Both the position numbers and the translations under genes were made by a program. From a virus, in the IMG/VR virus record IMGVR_UViG_3300027659_000246, positions 1-21,490 of that record: a stretch of 21,490 nucleotides of DNA. One strand, 5' to 3'. Shown here in pieces: positions 4,891 through 16,284 of this stretch. Positions within the stretch are counted from its first letter, which is position 1. Every line of letters begins with the position of its first letter. The notes beneath the pieces were generated by a model. That model had not been told where the DNA came from, ran no database searches, and worked only from the letters and a program-made list of their open reading frames with translations.

Positions 4891-6519
4891 TTAAAATTCT
4901 ATAACTAATTTTACAGTTTCTGTTTGCTCTGTAGATCTATAGATTGGAGCTCGATTTTCCACATAAAACATTTCGCCTGAAAATATATTTATATCTGGTT
5001 TTGCAACCGAGTATATTGTGGATGTTATAGATGGAAAATCTTTTTGTGTGATTTGTTCTGACAAAATAGCATCAACGTTACCGCTTATATTGTTTAGATA
5101 CAGTATATTGTCCGTGTTATTAAAGTGCACCACCCTGGCTTTAAATATTGCATTGTCATAACTGTTGCCAACGTAAACTTCCGAATTCTCAGAAAAATCT
5201 GATCCACTGGCAGGAGTTGATGTATACACAAGAGTATACATTGGTAGATATGTTTGAGTCGCAAATACACCATTGCTTGCGTATTTCGGATCTTTCACAA
5301 TGCTTATTTGACGAATAGAATCTTCATCAGTATTTACAATAGGATAATTTCCCTCTAAATCGCCCTCAAAGTCCAAACTAATCATTCTATATGATGCGCC
5401 TAATTCTCTAGCCACACTTGAACCATGTCCATATTGTGGGCTCACCACCACTCTAAACGATGCTTCTTCTCCGATAGTAGTCTGAAGTGGGTCATCAACA
5501 GTAAATGTAGCAGTTGTGTAATTATTGCCACCATTTACAATATTAACATCGTTGATAACACCCGAGGCAACATCTACAGTAACATTCGCGCTGGTTCCAT
5601 CTCCAGTAATTGTGCCAATTGCGTAATTGTTAACAGATCCACCTGCATAGTAGCCAGTGCCACCAGATAATATTCTAACGATATCTATTCTACCGTTTCG
5701 CGTATTGTCAAATACAATTGACTCTTCAACCACAGGCATAAATTTGTTTGTAAAGAATTTATTTTTTAAACCAGAAGTAATCGTATACATATACTTCCAC
5801 TTATAACCATCGCCTGTTTCGATAAATGGATTTTCTGGCAACTGACCACCAATAGTTATTTCTGGCATAATGGTAGATTGACCGTTAGCATTATTATCCA
5901 AACATTTAAACACCTGATCGTATGTGTTTCTTACATAAAATTTATTGTAATATTGAACATCAGAAGTTGATACTTTAAATAAGTTAGCAGAAGTATATGC
6001 TGAAGAAAAATTAGTATTAACATATAAGAAAGAACCATTCGGTGTGATAAAATGGATTTCTTTAGTTTCTTCTCCAATTCTAATAAGTCCACCAACTGTT
6101 AAATTTGCAGAAACAGAAGAAAGATTAATTCCATTTGCAAATACAGTATTAGATGAACTTACATTTACGTTGCCACCTGAAATTTGAGTTGCGACGTTTT
6201 TAGTAAAAACATTAAGAGTTTGATCATATGCCGCATAAATTGTTGTATTAGCCCAATCGACGCGAGGAATAACAGGATGGATGTCATTATCTGTTAATCG
6301 CTTCATTATAACGCCGTCGCGCGACACTTTATATCGATAATCCGTAGTGTCATTCGGTTTTTCTATGGTAACGTCATCTAATAAATTTGTGTTAGAAACG
6401 TTTGGCCAAGGAACAGTGCGCGAAAGCATAACATATACGTTTGCCAATGGCAATGATATCATTTGAGAAAAATTTTTTGCGTTTGTTACGCCGAAGTCTT
6501 TATAGATTAATGATGGCAT
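4891..6519 (-). CDS. 8: Baseplate wedge protein gp8
   Basis: gp8 is a wedge component that binds gp7 and gp10 in T4. The protein has 542 residues against 334 in T4. Segments matching T4 gp8 as I recall it, in order: SRTVPWPN (about 33-40; T4 GRSEPWS), VIPRVDWANT (83-92; T4 VIPRRDWGDT), ETGDGYKWKYMYTI (234-247; T4 EPGDGYVWEYLFEI), SIRQISIVKDP (401-411; T4 GFRQISIITNP), and the end FSGEMFYVENRAPIYRSTEQTE (513-534; T4 HSGEMIYMENRPPI...DQTE). The extra length is mainly two beta-rich insertions, at residues about 109-190 and 283-355, each related to insertions in neighbouring baseplate genes. It starts 3 bases after the stop of gp7. The ordered matches at both ends make this call firm. Confidence 0.93.
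   Translation of the reverse strand: MPSLIYKDFGVTNAKNFSQMISLPLANVYVMLSRTVPWPNVSNTNLLDDVTIEKPNDTTDYRYKVSRDGVIMKRLTDNDIHPVIPRVDWANTTIYAAYDQTLNVFTKNVATQISGGNVNVSSSNTVFANGINLSSVSANLTVGGLIRIGEETKEIHFITPNGSFLYVNTNFSSAYTSANLFKVSTSDVQYYNKFYVRNTYDQVFKCLDNNANGQSTIMPEITIGGQLPENPFIETGDGYKWKYMYTITSGLKNKFFTNKFMPVVEESIVFDNTRNGRIDIVRILSGGTGYYAGGSVNNYAIGTITGDGTSANVTVDVASGVINDVNIVNGGNNYTTATFTVDDPLQTTIGEEASFRVVVSPQYGHGSSVARELGASYRMISLDFEGDLEGNYPIVNTDEDSIRQISIVKDPKYASNGVFATQTYLPMYTLVYTSTPASGSDFSENSEVYVGNSYDNAIFKARVVHFNNTDNILYLNNISGNVDAILSEQITQKDFPSITSTIYSVAKPDINIFSGEMFYVENRAPIYRSTEQTETVKLVIEF
4986..4993 (-). promoter_or_regulatory. Possible internal T4-type late promoter (TATAAATA)
   Basis: On the minus strand this reads TATAAATA, the T4 late -10 sequence. 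It lies in the gp8 coding region about 113 bases upstream of the DUF4815 start, correctly oriented to feed that gene and those after it. In DNA this AT-rich a few such octamers are expected by chance, so only the position supports it. Confidence 0.25.
5455..5673 (-). repeat. GG-x-GY module inserted in gp8
   Basis: It encodes residues about 283-355 of gp8. It runs ILSGGTGYYAGG, then an Asn/Ala/Val stretch with GTITGDGTSANVTVDV, then NGGNNYTTATFTV. The pattern G-G-x-G-Y ... G-x-G-x-x-A-x ... G-I-x-x-(V/I)-x-(I/L)-x-N-x-G-x-x-Y recurs in gp7 and in gp6. T4 gp8 as I recall it has no equivalent. Confidence 0.6.
5950..6195 (-). repeat. NANGINL-type module inserted in gp8
   Basis: It encodes residues about 109-190 of gp8: GGNVNV, then NTVFANGINL, then LIRIGEETKEIHFI, then NGSFLYVNTNFSS and LFKVS. 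The closest relative is in gp7 at 9304-9537, with a weaker one in the 666-residue protein at 13507-13749. The gp8 and gp7 copies share an identical 16-base string, attaattccatttgca (6124-6139 and 9472-9487, plus-strand reading), so the similarity reaches DNA level. Confidence 0.65.
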
Positions 6520-6522
6520 TTT

Positions 6523-9500
6523 TTATCCATTAGTGCTAATAATTTTATATTCTACAACATTCAAACGTGGGTTTCTTAAATACATAACATTTGCATTTGA
6601 AAATCCGACAGAATTATTAAGAATAATTTGCGTATTTGAAACATCAGAAAGAAGATATCGATCATAAATTGTTCCGCTAATATTGAAAGAAATATTATCT
6701 CCAGCTTCTAAACTTTCGCTACCAACATAAGAATTAGCAAACAACGTTACATTAGCGTTTCCGCCGCTCGAGTTTGCGATAATTCTTAACCTTCCGTCAC
6801 CAGGACCACCGATTGGACTCTCAAGCCAAACAATATTTGCATTAACAACATTAGCAACAACTCTAGTATATTGCTTAAGAGTTGCAGTTTCAGTGCTATT
6901 TATTAGTAATAAATCACCAACATTAACAGTAGATGTAAAGTTAGCATTGTTACCGTATACAACGTTGCTTGCATAACTAGTATTAATGTTTGATCCTATT
7001 AATGTATTTGATATGTGTATATTTGAAGTAATTTTGATACTTTCATTTAAATCGTTTTTAATTAAAAACTTAGATAATAATTGAGTTCCGACAGGATGTA
7101 TAATTTTATTGATAGTTTCTTTATAATTATACAATGATTTCTCTGAACCTATCTCGTATGAGAAATTATGATAATAATCATCATTTTGAATTCGTTTGTC
7201 TGAACTTGGGAATCCATCAGTGTTCAAATAGAATCCAGTATATTTGATTAATCCTCTTAAAAATTCTGCATTCGCTTTTGCTAATCCATTACCATAATAA
7301 TGAGGATATGCTCTTTCTACAGCATCGTTTATATCATTAAATGAAACCGTTGCATTTGCTGTAAATAAGTTTACAGTTAAATTGCCAGACGAAGTCGCTA
7401 AATTTACTGGCAGTGACGTATTCAATAATCCACTGTATCCAAAGACACGAATAACTGAATTTTGTGAATCTGGTCTATACACATCATCAATAACGCCTGT
7501 GAATGTGGCATCAACATTTGTTGCGCCTCCTTGCCAAACTGTCTCACCAGAAACAACTATAGTTCCTGCAGGAAGATTATCAGTTAAGATATCTACAACT
7601 TTTAACGATACTACTGGAGTTTGTTCGTAATCTAGCCCACGACTTATTATTCTAAAGTCTTGAATTCTGCCTATATCATCTGTTTCTGCAGTTATAATTT
7701 CTCCATCGCTCAATCCATACAGGATAAAATCAGCATTAGAGCCAGCAGATACATTCGAACCATTAGCATTTAAAATTCTAATGGTTGGCATTTCATAATA
7801 CCCTTCACCACGATTATCTAGATTTATTCCTGTAATAGAACCATTTGCGTCTACTGTTATGGTAGCATTCGCGTTACATCCAGTGCCAATAAAATCTACT
7901 GAATCGGTGCTTGAATATCCACTACCGCCTCTATTAATAATTATCTTACCAATTTTACCAGTTCCGCGAACATTTGGTCTATAATCCAATATTAATTGGA
8001 AATTTAAAATATTTACAGCAGAAATATTATTGGCAAAAGCTCTATCTAGATATAGCGTTTTAACATTAGAGCTAGTATTTGCGTTAGTTACGACGTAGTC
8101 AATAACTTTAGAATAGTGAGAAGTTGTTCCAACATCTAAGAATAATCTTGTTCCAGTATAAAATCCATTTGCTAAACTATATGATGAATTGGAAGAGCTT
8201 AAACGAATAGATGGCGGTGTTCCAGTTTTATTGTAATTCGAAAATTGCCCTGATGGAATCAACATCAACCCTTCATCTGTTGCATAATCTGAATCATGAA
8301 ACGATTCAACATCAAACGTTGGAGGTTCTTCAAAAAATGATCCACCATTTAATAGAGTTAGTTGACGAATCGACCCAAGTAATAGCGATTCATATGTAAA
8401 TGCTGTTCCTATTTGAGTTTGCGCATTCGCAATCAAAAGAACATTGCTAGTTGCATTTGGCGATACAGCCAAGGCAGTTGATAAAGTTGCTATTTTGCTC
8501 ACACCATTATACGAAGCAATAGTAGCCGCATTCGGGCTATTAGCAGCACCTGTTCCACTTGTTATTTTTAATACCAATGTATTATAGTAGTTATTTGCAG
8601 AACTTGCTGTAAATGTTGCTGTATTTAAATTAACAGCTGTTGTAGTATTTCCAGGATTAGTTATTAATCCGACTCTAGCAGACGCATTGTCAAAATCATA
8701 TCCATTTTCGTTGTTTAATGTAATATCTCTTTTATACACAATTGAATCTGTATTGAATTGAATTGTGTTAGAGTTAGATGCATCTTCCCATATTCTAGAT
8801 ACAACAACGTTTGCGCCAATACCTGTATTGGAAAAAATTCTAACTTGAGAATTAGGTGTTGCTCTGAAAAGATATCCACCAGAATTAACTGTCAAAGATT
8901 GAATTGCACCAGTTGAAACATTGTTAACAACTGCTATGGCTTTTTGTGCATCAGGTGTGTCAGCAAGACCACCGAAAAATACTACAGGATCACCAGTTTT
9001 ATATTTTCGACCAGTTTGAACTATTCCAGATCTATTTCTGAACAACGTTAAATTTGAAATTAAAGATGCAATTTTAGATTTAAATGTTCTAGAAACACCC
9101 TCTGCATCTTCATATTGAACAATTAAATTTTCACCTTCATTAAACAATCTAGTAACATTTGAAACATATAGTTCGACTATTTCTCTACCAGTTGTTTTGT
9201 CAACTGTTTGAACAGCCTTTTCTATAATACAAGTTGTTCTAGAAATTTCTCCAATACCTTGTCTGCGCTCTAAAAGAGTTACATTAAAATTAGAATATTC
9301 GCTTAAAGTTACTCTGTATAACTTTTGTGTATTATATGTTTGTGCATTAGATGTATTGGCGAATGGTATTTCTACTCTTAAAAAATTACCAACAGAATTA
9401 ACACTGGTTACCTTTCGTTTTTCTAATCCAATTTGGATATATGAATTAGCTGTAATTCCTGCTGATACTAAATTAATTCCATTTGCATTAACTGTGTTAG

Positions 9501-9981
9501 CAGTAACAGCAAATACGTTTACATTTCCGCCAGTAACTAAAGTTAGTTTATCAGAAAAAATTAATCTTAATGCTTGAGGTAATTTCCACTTACCATCAGA
9601 TGCTTTAATAATATCTTCTTTTGGAAAATATACATCAATATCTTGATTATAGAGAACACTAAACAAAAATTTAAAAGAATCTGGCGTTCCTTTTTTAGCA
9701 TAAAAATCACGCGCAGCTTTTATAATTTTTTCTTTACTTAACGCAGTTTCTTCTGGAAAATTTGGTATAATCCGCTCTTTAAAATATTTTAAAAGATCAG
9801 ATCTAGTAGAGTCAACATCAATAAAATCGTATAATTTTTTATTTACATCTAATACTTTACCTGAACGTTCTAGATATTCATAGTATTTTTTTAATAAACT
9901 GACAAATTTAGGGTGATCTGCTCTTACGAAATCTGGTAATTGTGTTTCTACAATTGCGGATGTAAAGTTATTTGCAAACAT
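6523..9981 (-). CDS. 7: Baseplate wedge protein gp7-like, heavily expanded
   Basis: The 1152-residue protein starts in a TAATG overlap with gp6. In T4, gp7 (1032 residues) is a long wedge protein that joins gp8, gp10 and gp53. Two parts match the C-terminal third of T4 gp7 as I recall it. Residues about 26-118 run FVSLLKKYYEYL ... RDFYAKKGTPDSFKFLFSVLYNQDIDV (T4 ...YDFYSTKGIEASYKFLFKVLYNEEVEI). Residues about 936-975 run YYHNF ... YKETINKIIHPVGTQLLSKF (T4 ...WKSDVIRFVHPVGFGF). Between them are about 820 residues of Asn/Ser/Thr-rich beta sequence with a NANGIN module (149-226) and several GG-x-GY units (366-396, 683-737, 777-795). After residue 985 there is a further beta-rich tail. Nothing matches the long N-terminal region of T4 gp7. 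The call rests on the two conserved segments and on the order gp25-gp6-gp7-gp8, which is that of T4. Confidence 0.85.
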   Translation of the reverse strand: MFANNFTSAIVETQLPDFVRADHPKFVSLLKKYYEYLERSGKVLDVNKKLYDFIDVDSTRSDLLKYFKERIIPNFPEETALSKEKIIKAARDFYAKKGTPDSFKFLFSVLYNQDIDVYFPKEDIIKASDGKWKLPQALRLIFSDKLTLVTGGNVNVFAVTANTVNANGINLVSAGITANSYIQIGLEKRKVTSVNSVGNFLRVEIPFANTSNAQTYNTQKLYRVTLSEYSNFNVTLLERRQGIGEISRTTCIIEKAVQTVDKTTGREIVELYVSNVTRLFNEGENLIVQYEDAEGVSRTFKSKIASLISNLTLFRNRSGIVQTGRKYKTGDPVVFFGGLADTPDAQKAIAVVNNVSTGAIQSLTVNSGGYLFRATPNSQVRIFSNTGIGANVVVSRIWEDASNSNTIQFNTDSIVYKRDITLNNENGYDFDNASARVGLITNPGNTTTAVNLNTATFTASSANNYYNTLVLKITSGTGAANSPNAATIASYNGVSKIATLSTALAVSPNATSNVLLIANAQTQIGTAFTYESLLLGSIRQLTLLNGGSFFEEPPTFDVESFHDSDYATDEGLMLIPSGQFSNYNKTGTPPSIRLSSSNSSYSLANGFYTGTRLFLDVGTTSHYSKVIDYVVTNANTSSNVKTLYLDRAFANNISAVNILNFQLILDYRPNVRGTGKIGKIIINRGGSGYSSTDSVDFIGTGCNANATITVDANGSITGINLDNRGEGYYEMPTIRILNANGSNVSAGSNADFILYGLSDGEIITAETDDIGRIQDFRIISRGLDYEQTPVVSLKVVDILTDNLPAGTIVVSGETVWQGGATNVDATFTGVIDDVYRPDSQNSVIRVFGYSGLLNTSLPVNLATSSGNLTVNLFTANATVSFNDINDAVERAYPHYYGNGLAKANAEFLRGLIKYTGFYLNTDGFPSSDKRIQNDDYYHNFSYEIGSEKSLYNYKETINKIIHPVGTQLLSKFLIKNDLNESIKITSNIHISNTLIGSNINTSYASNVVYGNNANFTSTVNVGDLLLINSTETATLKQYTRVVANVVNANIVWLESPIGGPGDGRLRIIANSSGGNANVTLFANSYVGSESLEAGDNISFNISGTIYDRYLLSDVSNTQIILNNSVGFSNANVMYLRNPRLNVVEYKIISTNG
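7771..7935 (-). repeat. GG-x-GY tandem units in gp7
   Basis: This encodes residues about 683-737: NRGGSGYSSTDSVDFIGTG, then NATITVDANGSITGINL, then NRGEGYYEMPTIRI. It is the clearest full copy of the module also found in gp8 and gp6. A partial unit follows at about residues 777-795 (ISRGLDYEQTPVVSL). Confidence 0.65.
8794..8886 (-). repeat. Single GG-x-GY unit in gp7
   Basis: It encodes residues about 366-396: VNSGGYLFRATPNSQVRI, then SNTGIGANVVVSRI. It follows the same GY ... P ... V-R-I ... G-x-G-A pattern as the other copies, at lower similarity. Confidence 0.45.
9304..9537 (-). repeat. NANGINL-type module inserted in gp7
   Basis: It encodes residues about 149-226 of gp7: GGNVNV, NTVNANGINL, YIQIGLEKRKVTSVNSVGNF, LRVEIPFANTS, KLYRVT. 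It lies directly after the N-terminal conserved block of gp7 and aligns by eye along its full length with the gp8 module at 5950-6195. Confidence 0.65.
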
Positions 9982-12053
9982 TAATCTAGAGGCGTCATAG
10001 TTATGTTAATTGAGCCCAAACTTTCATCATCAATAGTTAAAATTCTGCTTCTAGCAGATTCAAAACTAGTTTTTGCTGGTTTGGCGTTGAATCTTAAAAT
10101 TTTAAGCGGATCTTCGATGCTAGTTGGATCAAATTGCCTTAAAGTTATCTTACCCAACAAATAATCAACAACACCTGCTTCTGGATTTAATATCGTTTTG
10201 ATGTTATTGTCGTCAAAGAAGAAACTACGAATAACACCATATCGACCTTGAATTGCTGTTGTTAATGAAACAGTAGTATCTAATTCGTCTTCATAATATA
10301 TGTTAGCCGCTGCAGTTCTGTAATTGACACCTGGATTGTCAACAATAATTTGTGTTATTTTTCCATTAACAATTATAGGGTATGCATTTGCACCAACACC
10401 ATCTCCTGAGATAACGATAGTTGGAGCAGTCAAATAGTCTGTTCTTGGAGCAGTAACAATTCTAACTGCCTCAACACCTGAAGATGTGCCTGGAACTTCT
10501 TCGAAGAAACAACTACGAACAACCCCTTCATTGTCAAATTGTTTAAATGCTGGCGTTGAACTTATTTTGAATTTTGGATCTTCTCTACTCAATTCAGTTC
10601 CGTAATCAAGTGTGTAGTTTCTTGCTGCGCCTATCTGCGGAATTAATCGTTTTTCTATAACAACTTCTGCATCACTATAGTTGATAGATGCATCTGCGTC
10701 GTCGATATTTCTTAATAATCTAGACAGTTTAAATTTGCTATTAAAATTATCTAATTGTTTATCTCTAAAATCCACCACAGAATTTCTAATAATTGTTTTT
10801 AAATCATCTGTTGATCTATTGGTCTTAGATTTAGTATAAAATACTTCTATAAACAATCTTATATAATTATAATCCACATCAACGAATTCTGGGATTACTG
10901 TAACGACACAAATTGGTTTAATAACATTATTAATAACATTTAATTTTTCTGATTCTGTAATCTCAAACCCAATTGATGGTTTTGCGGCAACGAATACCTT
11001 ACCATAAATTGGCGGATCATTATCTTCGCCGCCCCAAACATTAACAGCTTCGAAGTATGGATATTTTTGATTTATAATACCAATAATATCATCTTTCGTC
11101 ACACCTCTGTTGTTTGAGATATATGCTTTAGGTGCACTAAATCTAATTCTATCTATAGGTTCGCGATCTGAACCACCAGAGGCAGCTTTTACTGGAAATA
11201 TAATGCTATTTGTAAATCCACCGACTGAATCTATTAATGAGAATGCATTGACTTTATTTGCAGCAGCACCGTCTGTTTTGATGTATGTTACGATAACAAT
11301 GTTACCGTTTACTAATTTTTTACCTATAACATCGTCACCAAAATATATTTTATACTTACCATCTTTTGATTCGTCTAGATAATATACGTTTGAGGTTGAG
11401 GTTACTTCAGTCGCATCAGTTGCAAGTATATAATTTTCTTTTCTTAAACTTGTCGCGGAATCTTGCACAAACACTTGTATTGATGATACATCAATTCCAG
11501 CATCTGGCAATTCAAATGACTGTGTTATATTAGAAGCTGCATCATATGTAAAAGAATATGTCAACGGTTGACCTTGGTAGATGAATAAATCCCCAAAACA
11601 AAAACGATCACAAGTAGAATCATATTCTGCTACCTTAGATGTTAAATTTACAAATGTAAATGAGACTCCGTTGAATGGAGCTGATTGAAATCTAGAAAAT
11701 TTTGGTAGAGTTAGTGTAGTTTGCGTATTTCCAGATGGTCTAGAAATTTGCAAATTAACAGTCGCACGAGAACCAACTGTAGAACCAGGAGTATATCCCA
11801 GCATTTTTGCATGGGAGACCACAGAATTTCTTAAAACTGCAGTATCCAAAAACATTTCATTAGCAATCATATTATTATAAAAAGACATATAGTGCGTGTT
11901 ATACGCAAGTATGTCTAAAAGCACACTCATGCCAGATGCTTCGAAATCGAAATCTGAAAATTCTTGTTGATCGCGTAAAAAATTCTTTAAATTATTTTTA
12001 ATGCCATCAAAATCTAATTCTGTGACAATTAGTTTTTGGTCTGTATTTGCCAT
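9981..12053 (-). CDS. 6: Baseplate wedge protein gp6
   Basis: gp6 forms the inner ring that holds the six wedges together; its family is related to gpJ of phage P2. At 690 residues it is close to T4 gp6 (660). The N-terminus matches T4: FDGIKNNLKNFLRDQQEFSDFDFEASGMSVLLDILAYNTHY (about 15-55; T4 ...IKQNLIEWLNGQNEFLDYDFEGSRLNVLCDLLAYNT), then LRNSVVSHAKMLGYTP (74-89). Further on are YYLDESKDGKYKIYFGD (224-240), SGGSDREPIDRIRF (292-305) and YGKVFVAAKPSIGFEIT (350-366). The C-terminal part (about 529-588) carries a GY-type module with APTIVISGDGVGANAY and GKITQIIV. It starts in a TAATG overlap with gp25 and ends in one with gp7, so the three are probably translationally coupled. Confidence 0.94.
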   Translation of the reverse strand: MANTDQKLIVTELDFDGIKNNLKNFLRDQQEFSDFDFEASGMSVLLDILAYNTHYMSFYNNMIANEMFLDTAVLRNSVVSHAKMLGYTPGSTVGSRATVNLQISRPSGNTQTTLTLPKFSRFQSAPFNGVSFTFVNLTSKVAEYDSTCDRFCFGDLFIYQGQPLTYSFTYDAASNITQSFELPDAGIDVSSIQVFVQDSATSLRKENYILATDATEVTSTSNVYYLDESKDGKYKIYFGDDVIGKKLVNGNIVIVTYIKTDGAAANKVNAFSLIDSVGGFTNSIIFPVKAASGGSDREPIDRIRFSAPKAYISNNRGVTKDDIIGIINQKYPYFEAVNVWGGEDNDPPIYGKVFVAAKPSIGFEITESEKLNVINNVIKPICVVTVIPEFVDVDYNYIRLFIEVFYTKSKTNRSTDDLKTIIRNSVVDFRDKQLDNFNSKFKLSRLLRNIDDADASINYSDAEVVIEKRLIPQIGAARNYTLDYGTELSREDPKFKISSTPAFKQFDNEGVVRSCFFEEVPGTSSGVEAVRIVTAPRTDYLTAPTIVISGDGVGANAYPIIVNGKITQIIVDNPGVNYRTAAANIYYEDELDTTVSLTTAIQGRYGVIRSFFFDDNNIKTILNPEAGVVDYLLGKITLRQFDPTSIEDPLKILRFNAKPAKTSFESARSRILTIDDESLGSINITMTPLD
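10290..10469 (-). repeat. GY-type module in gp6 C-terminus
   Basis: It encodes residues about 529-588: VRIVTAPRTDYLTAPTIVIS, then GDGVGANAYPIIVNGKITQI, then IVDNPGVNYRTAAANIYY. It has the same arrangement as the gp7 and gp8 units: aromatic Y, then P-x-V/I, G-x-G-x-x-A, G-x-I-x-x-I, then G-x-x-Y. Confidence 0.55.
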
Positions 12054-12465: not shown

Positions 12466-14466
12466 TTAGCAAGGTTTTGCGCATGGATCTTCTGGGATTA
12501 CAACATCTGGATTTTGATCGTCAATTCCACCACCGATTACATCGCCACCAGCTGGATTTCCATCTTGTCTTGGGAACGGACCAGATATACTATCTAATTC
12601 GTCGAATAAATTATTTGCAGAAGGAATATTGGTGTCAATATCTGGGCTATTAGGAGTGTTTAGATTAGGATCATTGTATTCACGATCGAAATCATCTAAT
12701 ATGTCAATAAAATCGCTGGTTGTCGCGTCGCACCCTTGTCTTTCTGGATTAGGCTGCAAAATTAAATCCAAATAATCGTCGGAATCAGTTGCATTTCCGC
12801 CTTGGTCTTTACGTTTTTTCTTAGAACAAGACATTGAGAATAACTTAATCATTCCCTTTACTAAACTTTTAACTTGATTAATTACAGCAAGATCTTGCTC
12901 ATAGATATTCTTCGCATCATTTTTAATTGCTGTTAGTCTGTTTATAGATCCATTAATTGCAATAACAACGTCAGTGTTGCTCAAGGATCTCAAAGCATCA
13001 TCTCTTAAATCATATTTCATTTGAGTCAATGCATTTTTAGCTCTTCTCAACAACTCTTCTTCGAGTAATGACTGGGCAGCATCTGTTGGTTTAGATGCAT
13101 TAACGCTCTGATATGCTCCATTAGCTCTTCTAACTTTAACAGTAAGACCATTTAATAATGTTGTGTCGCCCATTATTTGCCCAGGCAAAGTAAATGCGGT
13201 AATTATGCCATCTGGGTCAACCAAATCTTCTGTCAAATCAAGATACGGAACTTCATTTGTTATTTTAAAGATTGGCATTCTTTCAGTGTATCTTAAAGAA
13301 TCGTCCACAGTTATAGAAGTATTAGTGACAGAAACTACATTGTATTCTTTATTATCATAATAAATTTTATTATTTGCTTCTAAGACGCTTGTAAATGTCG
13401 TTCCAACTCCAGTAATTACATTATCTAAACACAGTGAATTAGCCACAAATGGAGTCTTGACTGATATCAATCTTTCATTTGTAAATGTGAACGCTGTATT
13501 GACATTAAATGAACTTTCTTTTAACAAAATTGTATTTGATACGGAGTTATTAAATGGTAAATATACTGTTAGATAATCTCCAAGCGAATTAATGGTATTA
13601 ATTTGACGAACTTCACCATTTACTGAGATAAACATTCCAGAACTGAGTAAAATATTTCCAGTTTCGTATCCCCCTATTCCACCATTAACCGAAAGATTAC
13701 AACTTGTTAAATTTAATGTAGATACAGAAGCTGTGGTGACTTTAACATTATTTGTTGTTGTGTCTATAGAAACTGTTCCATGGAAAGTTGGAGTAAACTT
13801 TTTACTTATGACTGTTCGTTCTTCTGTATCGACTACTATTACATCTCCTATATTTACAATAGGATAAACTCTATTGCTTAAATTTGGATACACCACATTT
13901 GAAGAAATAATATGAACTGAAGAATTTTGAATAGTGACATTACCGTAAATTCTTTGAAATTCAAACTTTACTGTGGCGCCTCCTAATCCTGAAAGACTAT
14001 CTGTGTGCTGCTCCATAGTTCTAAACGTAGAAGCAAAAGAATCTTCTGCCGCTGCCAACGAAGATAGTTCTCCAATACTAAATGGTCCAAGTTTGTAGTT
14101 CGTATTTGCCGAAAATTCCACTACCTTGCCAAGTCTATCTAATAATTCTGTTCTAGCGCTTACAATGCTTGGTGCAGTATTACTGAATAAACCTGGCAAT
14201 GCAGCCTGAAGCCCAGCATAATTATTTGCTGTTAAAGAGTCTAAATCAGCATTTAAATCATTAAATCTAGTTGCTAGTGGATTTAAAAAATCCTTTGCGA
14301 ATAAATTTCTAACAGCATCTGATACTCTTTGCGCGTCTCTTTTAATGCCTGCAAGAAATTGCCCCAGCGTAGTGTTTGCAAACATTCCACCCAATTTCGC
14401 GAATGGAATGGGCTTCCCTGTAAACATAATTGCCAAGGTCTGAAGAAGCGGTAATCCTCCGATCAA
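12466..14466 (-). CDS. Unassigned structural protein between gp5 and gp25 (666 aa)
   Basis: I do not recognise this protein. As called it starts at a TTG (14464-14466); the first ATG is codon 14 (14427). The in-frame sequence upstream is open back to 14517 and looks protein-like (RVFLGKIIGKIIKIILC), so the true N-terminus is uncertain. Residues 1-30 are hydrophobic. Residues 30-160 look helical and Ala-rich, with repeated Leu. Residues about 170-400 are Val/Asn/Thr-rich beta sequence with at least one NANGIN-related module (about 240-320) and a GVGTTFTSVLEANNKIYYD unit (353-371). Residues 460-545 are probably coiled coil or helical, ending SMSCSKKKRKDQGG. The last 110 residues are acidic, rich in Pro, Asn and Asp, and end DPCAKPC. 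Its place between the hub (gp27/gp5) and wedge (gp25/gp6) genes argues for a virion protein near the baseplate centre; the function is unknown. Confidence 0.75.
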   Translation of the reverse strand: MIGGLPLLQTLAIMFTGKPIPFAKLGGMFANTTLGQFLAGIKRDAQRVSDAVRNLFAKDFLNPLATRFNDLNADLDSLTANNYAGLQAALPGLFSNTAPSIVSARTELLDRLGKVVEFSANTNYKLGPFSIGELSSLAAAEDSFASTFRTMEQHTDSLSGLGGATVKFEFQRIYGNVTIQNSSVHIISSNVVYPNLSNRVYPIVNIGDVIVVDTEERTVISKKFTPTFHGTVSIDTTTNNVKVTTASVSTLNLTSCNLSVNGGIGGYETGNILLSSGMFISVNGEVRQINTINSLGDYLTVYLPFNNSVSNTILLKESSFNVNTAFTFTNERLISVKTPFVANSLCLDNVITGVGTTFTSVLEANNKIYYDNKEYNVVSVTNTSITVDDSLRYTERMPIFKITNEVPYLDLTEDLVDPDGIITAFTLPGQIMGDTTLLNGLTVKVRRANGAYQSVNASKPTDAAQSLLEEELLRRAKNALTQMKYDLRDDALRSLSNTDVVIAINGSINRLTAIKNDAKNIYEQDLAVINQVKSLVKGMIKLFSMSCSKKKRKDQGGNATDSDDYLDLILQPNPERQGCDATTSDFIDILDDFDREYNDPNLNTPNSPDIDTNIPSANNLFDELDSISGPFPRQDGNPAGGDVIGGGIDDQNPDVVIPEDPCAKPC
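13507..13749 (-). repeat. Diverged NANGIN-type module in the 666-aa protein
   Basis: It encodes residues about 240-320: NVKVTTASVSTLNL, then GMFISVNGEVRQIN, then TINSLGDYLTVYLPFNNSVS. The string I-(S/Q)-(V/I)-x-x-E-x-R-x-(I/V)-x-x-(I/V)-N-S-(L/V)-G-(D/N)-(Y/F)-L-x-V-x-(L/I)-P-F-x-N matches the gp7 module at 9304-9537. Confidence 0.5.
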
Positions 14467-14504
14467 ACAGAGAATTATTTTAATAATTTTGCCTATAATT
14501 TTAC

Positions 14505-14690
14505 CTAGGAAGACACGTTACTCCCATAAAATGTTTCTTTTATTTTTAAAAGAATTAAATAAGAATCATATTTTTGTTTTAGTTCATGAGAATACATAAA
14601 ATCCTTATCAGATTCTGACAAAGGTAAATGTTTAATCATTTTTGCTAAAATTAAATTATACTGTTTGATATCATCTTGTTGTATGCACAT
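14505..14690 (-). CDS. Small hypothetical protein (61 aa)
   Basis: The protein begins MCIQQDDIKQYNLILAKMIK, is about 61 residues, mostly helical and charged, and ends TFYGSNVSS. I recognise no family. I chose the ATG at 14690 because it lies 10 bases after the stop of the gp5-like gene. The frame is open to an earlier ATG at 14780, but that would overlap gp5 by 80 bases in a run of genes where overlaps are 8 bases or fewer. The bases just upstream read AATAAATACA with no Shine-Dalgarno site. It ends at TAG (14505-14507), inside the upstream open region of the 666-residue gene and in a different frame. The small size, the AT-rich composition and the missing ribosome-binding site leave real doubt that it is expressed on its own. 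Confidence 0.5.
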   Translation of the reverse strand: MCIQQDDIKQYNLILAKMIKHLPLSESDKDFMYSHELKQKYDSYLILLKIKETFYGSNVSS

Positions 14691-14692
14691 TG

Positions 14693-14700
14693 TATTTATT
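14693..14700 (-). promoter_or_regulatory. AATAAATA element before the 61-aa gene
   Basis: The minus strand reads AATAAATA directly after the stop of the gp5-like gene and two bases before the ATG at 14690. It fits the NATAAATA late-promoter form reported for T4-like cyanophages. With normal T4 spacing, however, transcription would start just inside the ATG, so it may simply be an A-rich initiation region. Confidence 0.2.
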
Positions 14701-16284
14701 TCAAGTTTCGGCAGCTTTATATGCGCTAGTGTCTGGCTCAGGGTCTCTCGTATTGGATGATTCCTCAAATCCAGTAACATTGATTAAATTATCATTGTCT
14801 TGTTTCAATTCATTTTTAGGTAGAGTTACATCTACCTTAACTGATTTCGTTGCTTCCTCAATCACTGCAAGCAATTCGGCGCCAGTTTCAGTAGGTAATG
14901 TTTTCTTTTTTCCAGTAACTGTCACTGGTTCTAGAACATCAGTCCCTTCTCGATCTTTTGCTAATTTTGAGAATACATCAGTTTTTGGCGGCTGAGCTGC
15001 AGGAGCAACCTTTGCTAAATCCGCTCCAGCCTTCATATCTGGACCACTAGCAAACGAAGCAGTTGGACCAACTTTACCAACTGCTGGTATATTGGAATTT
15101 AAATCTTGAATTCCAGCAGTCAATAACAATTGTGTGATTAATTCAATAACGCTACTTTCAATGTGAGTCATAGCTCCACCAACAGAAGTCACGCCAGAAC
15201 TTTTAAGAACTGTTTGGAATCCACCATAAATTTTAGCGGCATTTGCTGCAGCAATATTTACATCTGCGCCACTTAAATGAGCCAGTAGCCCCGCGAGATG
15301 AAGACCACCAGCTGCCTTTATTTTTGTGTCGCTGGAAGAAGCCATTTGAATTTTGTCGGCAGAAATTAATTCCAAACCACCACACTCTATTCTTAACTTA
15401 CCATTTACACGCAAATACATGTCTGAGTCAACAGTTTCATATTTTTCACCATTAACATAACTTCTGTGGTCGCCCATCGTTACATCATAGCGACTCTTTT
15501 GTGATTTAATTTTTGTATGCCCTTCTGGTAAAAATTCCAAAGTTGATCCAGTTCTGTGAGATAACTGAACTCTTTCATATCCTTCTGTGTCATCCATCTC
15601 AAAGGCATGACCAGACTCAGTTTCAGTCACATTATTAAATGGATACATGGCATTGTAAGATGGGTATGGCTCATCCCACGTTACACCTCTAGCTGTTTGG
15701 ATGTCGGGGATTCTTGTTTTTCTTTGTATATCAATGCTTGTATTTGCAATAGAACTTGGTTCTATTCCTTGATAAGCACCATTCGCAGTTGATCTATTTG
15801 GTCTAGCCAACCTTGAGACTGTAGGCTCATCTAATACAGAAGGATTTCTTTTTGCTGTATCATTAACAACATTAATTCCTCTGCTGTCTCTCTTTACGCT
15901 AAATTCTTTTATTTTTCTGGGAAAATCTTGAGCAGCTTTTTCAGCATCTGTGTATGGGTCTGTAAATCCTGCATTATTCTGGCGAATCTCTACTGGAATT
16001 CCAGGAACAGTTCCAATTATAATAGGATATTCCCCATGAGAACCATCTGCGAAAAATCCAAATACCATTGTTCCTTCTGCTGGCGCTTGCACAGACTTAA
16101 CTCCATATGGAACAATTGGATGCGCCCATGGAAGTTTATCTATTGGCAATTGATTAATATCGTCAGAATGCCAACCAAAACATCTTATTTGGCATCTTCC
16201 TAATTCTAGTGGGTCTAATCGATTTTCGACTACACCAAACCACCAAACAAAATTGTTTAATCCTAGAAAATCGTTGTTGTTCAT
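14701..16284 (-). CDS. 5: gp5-like baseplate hub/spike protein, no lysozyme domain
   Basis: T4 gp5 is the membrane-piercing spike: an N-terminal OB fold, a lysozyme domain and a C-terminal triple beta-helix. This 527-residue protein has the OB part (about 12-100): FVWWFGVVENRLDPLELGRCQIR (T4 WFVGVVEDRMDPLKLGRVRVR), then LPWAHPIVP, and EGTMVFGFFADG. It also has the segment just before the helix (about 209-260): SYNAMYPFNNVTETESGHAFEMDDTEGYERVQLSHRTGS (T4 YPYVHTMETESGHIQEFDDTPGQERYRLVHPTGT). Between them are only about 110 low-complexity residues with no lysozyme-like sequence or Glu/Asp/Thr catalytic layout. The beta-helix is short (VNGEKYETV, LRVNGKLRIEC) and is followed by an Ala/Gly-rich region and a charged, disordered tail containing LEPVTVTGKKK. 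It starts in an ATGA overlap with the gp27-like gene. Confidence 0.88.
   Translation of the reverse strand: MNNNDFLGLNNFVWWFGVVENRLDPLELGRCQIRCFGWHSDDINQLPIDKLPWAHPIVPYGVKSVQAPAEGTMVFGFFADGSHGEYPIIIGTVPGIPVEIRQNNAGFTDPYTDAEKAAQDFPRKIKEFSVKRDSRGINVVNDTAKRNPSVLDEPTVSRLARPNRSTANGAYQGIEPSSIANTSIDIQRKTRIPDIQTARGVTWDEPYPSYNAMYPFNNVTETESGHAFEMDDTEGYERVQLSHRTGSTLEFLPEGHTKIKSQKSRYDVTMGDHRSYVNGEKYETVDSDMYLRVNGKLRIECGGLELISADKIQMASSSDTKIKAAGGLHLAGLLAHLSGADVNIAAANAAKIYGGFQTVLKSSGVTSVGGAMTHIESSVIELITQLLLTAGIQDLNSNIPAVGKVGPTASFASGPDMKAGADLAKVAPAAQPPKTDVFSKLAKDREGTDVLEPVTVTGKKKTLPTETGAELLAVIEEATKSVKVDVTLPKNELKQDNDNLINVTGFEESSNTRDPEPDTSAYKAAET

Follow-up and report, generated by a model that had tools for sequence, protein, structure and literature searches.

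A protein family of the baseplate locus in uncultured T4-like phages, encoded by a gene that lacks a canonical start codon

Results

A conserved gene linked to gp25

The window, by which we mean the whole 21,490-base virus record analyzed here, carries a T4-like tail locus that is read in the minus direction. Its genes follow one another in the order g48, g53, PHROG-350, gp5, a small and a large open reading frame (ORF), gp25, gp6, gp7, and gp8, and then a gp10-like gene; the names gp6, gp7, gp8, and gp10 were given from order and size, without a profile search. The g48-like gene corresponds to the tube cap, g53 to gp53, and PHROG-350 to a tail protein; the PHROG-350 and gp5-like genes are both separate from the large ORF. 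The large ORF and its neighbors are located as follows.

14701 to 16284, minus strand: gp5-like hub/spike gene, upstream of the large ORF (PHROG 430, 8.1e-62; Gp5_OB)
14505 to 14690, minus strand: conserved small ORF of 61 aa (MCIQQDDIKQYN...NVSS, then stop), in another frame, overlapping the head of the large ORF
12466 to 14517, minus strand: large-protein ORF of 683 codons, stop at 12466 to 12468; inferred first codon GTC at 14514 to 14512, giving 682 aa
12053 to 12445, minus strand: gp25-like baseplate wedge gene, directly downstream of the large ORF (PHROG 261, 3.5e-41; Pfam GPW_gp25)

On the minus strand the large frame is open from codon 14517-14515 through the stop at 12468-12466, 683 codons in all; the plus direction of 12466 to 14517 is riddled with stops. 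It is a real gene. Chance is excluded because about 74 IMG/VR contigs encode full-length relatives, down to about 30 to 40% identity; repeated profile and pattern scans of IMG/VR added few more.

Outside this group, searches of 50,697 phage records, PHROGs, Pfam, and PDB sequences gave no match to the large protein that passes as homology, and no relative was found in GTDB species genomes. The nearest isolates are remote, with gp5 about 34% identical to that of Vibrio phages and g48 about 31% to that of Pelagibacter phage HTVC008M. Neither the interval between gp5 and gp25 in HTVC008M nor the region before gp25 in the cyanophages S-PM2 and ACG-2014d gave a tblastn match to the large protein, and nothing similar is annotated in either place. 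The large protein thus defines a previously unclassified family restricted to one uncultured T4-like phage group. The preliminary description had suspected as much, finding no T4 counterpart and proposing a protein specific to its phage group, and both views are borne out: the family is locked to the baseplate operon and has no known relative. psbA, sought as a hint to the host, was absent in five contigs.

The same description had placed the protein in a conserved neighborhood between gp5 and gp25. Its gp25 side held without exception, with gp25 lying no more than 100 nt downstream of the large ORF in 52/52 testable relatives, that is, those with enough downstream sequence. The presence of gp5 is usual and not obligatory; its distance from the large ORF is at most 450 nt in 28 relatives and about 580 to 1,075 nt in 22, and in L175, L188, and L253 it is not adjacent, with other ORFs intervening. 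Since the linkage to gp25 is strict and that to gp5 variable, the linked unit consists of the small ORF, the large ORF, and gp25. In L188 (161 to 3412), L175, and L253, which form one derived clade, the place directly upstream of the small ORF is taken by a group of other ORFs; in L064, from the same contig as L175, a 1,884-codon open frame follows gp5. The gp5-like protein of the window has an OB domain and a needle part, with no lysozyme domain match in Pfam.

Anatomy of the large protein

Counting residues from codon 14514, the large protein can be divided into the following parts.

14422 to 14478, minus strand: membrane-type hydrophobic helix, residues 13 to 31 (IILCLIGGLPLLQTLAIMF); KD19 2.27, next best KD19 window 1.15
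13993 to 14274, minus strand: helical region, residues 81 to 174 (AlphaFold2 model)
13246 to 13971, minus strand: beta-rich region, residues 182 to 423 (AlphaFold2 model)
12808 to 12978, minus strand: long single helix, residues about 513 to 569 (AlphaFold2 model)
12469 to 12822, minus strand: KKKRK basic stretch, then acidic tail, probably disordered (conservation; low pLDDT)

Lysines precede the N-terminal helix, within which the motif ILCLIGG.PLLQ is nearly invariant among relatives. The acidic tail has the conserved motif SDDYLDLI..PNP.RQGC.AT..DF...LDD and then the final DPCAKPC (DPC..PC in the family). All of the parts that had been described from the letters of the gene (hydrophobic N terminus, helices, beta part, long helix, acidic tail, and DPCAKPC) are present. 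AlphaFold2 modeled residues 75 to 575 from 41 sequences with a mean pLDDT of 81.6 and a pTM of 0.78; the full-length model, from 21 sequences, was poor (58). A Foldseek search with both models gave no credible fold match.

One segment of the beta-rich region recurs in the neighboring wedge proteins.

13543 to 13671, minus strand: shared beta module, residues about 282 to 324 of the large protein
9328 to 9456, minus strand: matching module, residues 176 to 218 of the gp7-like protein
5965 to 6111, minus strand: matching module, residues 137 to 185 of the gp8-like protein

A profile of residues 262 to 342 matched the gp7-like protein at 5.7e-9 and the gp8-like protein at 1.5e-5, compared to a best score of 0.03 for shuffled sequences, so that the large protein carries the beta module of the gp7/gp8 type first noted from the sequence. 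From this module the protein had been argued to be part of the baseplate structure. The sharing with wedge proteins stands, but the module, which also occurs weakly in the gp10-like protein (2.6e-3), does not serve as a marker of position. The large protein has in common with gp7 and gp8 one beta module of about 45 residues and the same operon; the remainder is unrelated, and its helices, membrane-type helix, and tail are different. Among the wedge proteins themselves, gp7-like (6523 to 9981) and gp8-like (4891 to 6519) have a 100-residue stretch in common (36%, 1.5e-9), and gp6 (9981 to 12053) and gp8-like have another (33%, E 0.004).

The missing start codon

The most unusual part of the finding is that the gene has no start codon; this and the overlapping, conserved 61-aa ORF are new beyond the preliminary description. 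Three sequence elements lie at the junction.

14693 to 14699, minus strand: ATAAATA, similar to T4-type late promoters, with the small-ORF ATG 2 nt downstream (consensus match only)
14521 to 14524, minus strand: Shine-Dalgarno-like GGAG, 6 nt before GTC 14514 and 4 nt before an out-of-frame GTG
14512 to 14516, minus strand: GTGTC, in which the out-of-frame GTG 14516-14514 (frame of the small ORF) overlaps the in-frame GTC 14514-14512

A canonical start, that is, an in-frame ATG, GTG, or TTG near the conserved N terminus, was not found in the window: from the last upstream stop (14520-14518) to the conserved N-terminal stretch, no NTG codon occurs. The ORF at 12466 to 14517 was correctly recognized at the outset, but the 666 residues then assigned to it are obtained only from TTG 14466, and this start is wrong; from codon 14514 the protein has 682 aa. 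At the position of that TTG, relatives have TTA, CTA, CTT, CTC, or CTG, and the codons before it are constrained at the protein level. Over codons 5 to 16, the 12 codons directly upstream of TTG 14466, pN/pS is 0.07, and therefore these codons are translated.

Other candidates fared no better. The downstream ATG of IMFTG is not conserved in L030, L037, and L055. The out-of-frame GTG (14516) opens a frame that closes two codons later in the window; it is also replaced by CCG in several lineages, and L113 and L253 have no NTG there in the small-ORF frame. Because dozens of separate contigs show the same arrangement, an error in sequencing or assembly where the ORF begins can be set aside. Among the distinct junctions listed, only L037 (TTG), L170, L175, and L188 have an NTG before the conserved N terminus.

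At the codon aligned with 14514, most members have GTC, others GCT, GCC, or GCG, and L170, L175, and L188 have GTG; GTGTC is retained in most clades. In nearly all members without a start, GGAG or GAGG precedes the aligned codon by 5 to 6 nt (L037 has AAGAG), and this Shine-Dalgarno-like sequence is kept among relatives although the small-ORF residues encoded there differ. The other genes of the window, read from their upstream sequences, start with ATG about 6 to 8 nt after any visible Shine-Dalgarno sequence; for gp25, ATG is the start in nearly all relatives. In a family tree (midpoint root, short search), the three sequences of the GTG clade are nested inside the start-less family and need one change, and GTC and GCN must have been exchanged on several separate occasions; judged from these sequences, the start-less state looks old.

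A homologous small ORF with an MC start is present in the 40 junctions tested (pN/pS 0.34). It spans the start site and stops a few codons after it, except in L181, whose copy ends just ahead of the site. In every pair examined, the large ORF reads in frame -1 relative to the small one. A TAAATA-like sequence occurs at the matching position in most relatives, and CTAAATA precedes gp25 in many. In the window, ATAAATA overlaps the boundary between gp5 and the small ORF; should it act as a promoter, its transcripts would start within the small ORF.

A phage tRNA with an odd anticodon was rejected as an explanation, none being present among the tRNAs of two relatives. L219, L220, and L221 are rich in tRNA genes, with 26 to 27 in a 197-kb contig and 18 to 19 in an 84-kb contig. 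A tRNA-Met(CAT) at L220 (170 to 244) and L221 (267 to 340), in contigs G001 and G002, lies outside the phage tRNA cluster or at its edge; its U1.U72 mismatch is of the kind seen in initiator tRNAs, but at 11:24 in the D stem it is elongator-like.

Discussion

What might the large protein do? Because of the linkage to gp25, the module in common with wedge proteins, and the position beside the hub genes, we read it as a lineage-specific structural protein of the T4-like baseplate center, a reading to which we give an even chance. The confident model of helices, beta region, and long helix over residues 75 to 575 and the nearly invariant hydrophobic helix speak for it; the fold searches, in which no solved or predicted structural relative appeared, speak against it. 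We imagine that the protein would most likely sit at the junction of the central hub (gp5/gp27-like) and the inner wedge (gp25/gp6). Its N-terminal membrane-type helix, placed in the hub or tube end, might be buried together with the tape measure or, upon contraction, be released into the membrane of the host. The beta modules, of the kind also present in the gp7-like and gp8-like wedge proteins, may make contacts inside the baseplate, with the long helix as a possible oligomerization element and the acidic, Cys-ending tail as a possible anchor.

The membrane helix also fits a nonvirion assembly factor. T4 requires gp51 for assembly, and gp51 is not found in the particle (PMC3004832). One can envision a similar membrane-anchored protein acting catalytically and in small amounts on the hub or baseplate, and the lysines before the helix, the precedent of gp51, and a weak, non-canonical start, as would suit a low-copy catalyst, are consistent with this. 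However, the protein is large and beta-rich and shares its module with structural wedge proteins. It has no match to the gp26, gp28, and gp51 families in PHROGs or Pfam, and none of these is named among the weak matches of 21 relatives; we regard such a role as improbable. The T4 hub (gp5/gp27/gp29) and its factors (gp26/gp28/gp51) resemble our protein in their position near hub genes and in the suspected central location or hub role; they differ in that no sequence family is shared and that the gp5-like and PHROG-350 genes are present separately in the window.

Somewhat less probable still is that the protein is an ejected pilot or spike-associated protein, one that moves through the tail tube or beneath it and makes a pore in the host membrane. 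The membrane-type helix, the long helix, the Cys-ended tail, and the usual place downstream of the spike gene gp5 would all suit such a protein, but the beta module matches wedge proteins and not the spike, and the strict linkage is with gp25, not gp5. The window protein also has no PAAR-repeat match in Pfam, where a beta-solenoid match was sub-threshold only, and no match to a tape measure family in PHROG or Pfam; 2 of 21 relatives match a tape measure PHROG, at 7e-4 only. With its large beta region, it is not the long, mostly helical protein expected of a tape measure.

That leaves the question of how the large frame is translated. Our leading guess, which falls slightly short of an even chance, is Shine-Dalgarno-directed, non-canonical initiation on the aligned codon. 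The large protein would then be its own chain, starting around codon 14514 (GTC, with the Shine-Dalgarno sequence 6 nt upstream), and initiation there would be weak and yield few copies. The spacing of 5 to 6 nt in nearly all start-less members is consistent with this, as is the small ORF of L181, which ends just before the site. L170, L175, and L188 have GTG at the aligned position, and therefore a free start at that codon gives a working gene. Against it, the GCT, GCC, and GCG of several lineages are very poor start codons. In E. coli, a mutant initiator tRNA is known to permit initiation at GUC, and ribosomes also initiate at non-canonical codons when ribosome recycling factor is lost (PMC2268962). 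A single Shine-Dalgarno sequence can serve two overlapping starts (PMC9841429). Like the ambiguous AUGUG/GUGUG starts of E. coli in that study, the phage site has overlapping candidate triplets two bases apart behind one Shine-Dalgarno sequence, a setting in which the choice of frame depends on spacing; unlike them, its in-frame triplet is GUC or GCN and not GUG.

Ribosomes might instead slip at the overlap, fusing the small and large ORFs by programmed -1 frameshifting. Relative to the small ORF, the large one is constantly in frame -1, and it has no start codon of its own; a Shine-Dalgarno-like stimulator lies upstream, and most relatives have the frame-0 stop at p+9. Programmed -1 frameshift gene pairs are familiar from phage tails, where the lambda G/GT type precedes the tape measure gene. 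Such pairs also have a small upstream ORF overlapping a larger one in the -1 frame, but the site of our family has no slippery heptamer (X XXY YYZ) and sits between gp5 and gp25. In several clades the 0-frame codons cannot re-pair in -1, and the derived clade possesses its own GTG start. The upstream frame is open in the others tested, but in L181 it closes before the site. Synonymous constraint is confined to the first 9 or so codons and does not extend downstream, which speaks against an extended RNA structure as the shift signal. We consider a frameshift rather unlikely, and less probable than initiation at the aligned codon.

The most far-reaching picture, to which we again give a little less than an even chance, is of a conserved baseplate-locus gene translated without NUG by an old, maintained mechanism, be it Shine-Dalgarno-directed initiation at GUC/GCN or a new kind of frameshift from the overlapping small ORF; the phage would thereby make a new baseplate protein with a membrane helix in a small and fixed quantity.

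For annotation, automatic start calling (TTG here) leads to a wrong N terminus and hides the overlapping small gene. For some baseplate parts of uncultured T4-like phages, T4 supplies no name, and this family, a fixed part of one such baseplate locus, offers a clear target for proteomics and cryo-electron microscopy. The absence of a start codon, kept across many lineages, would provide a natural case for NUG-less starting or shifting by bacterial ribosomes.
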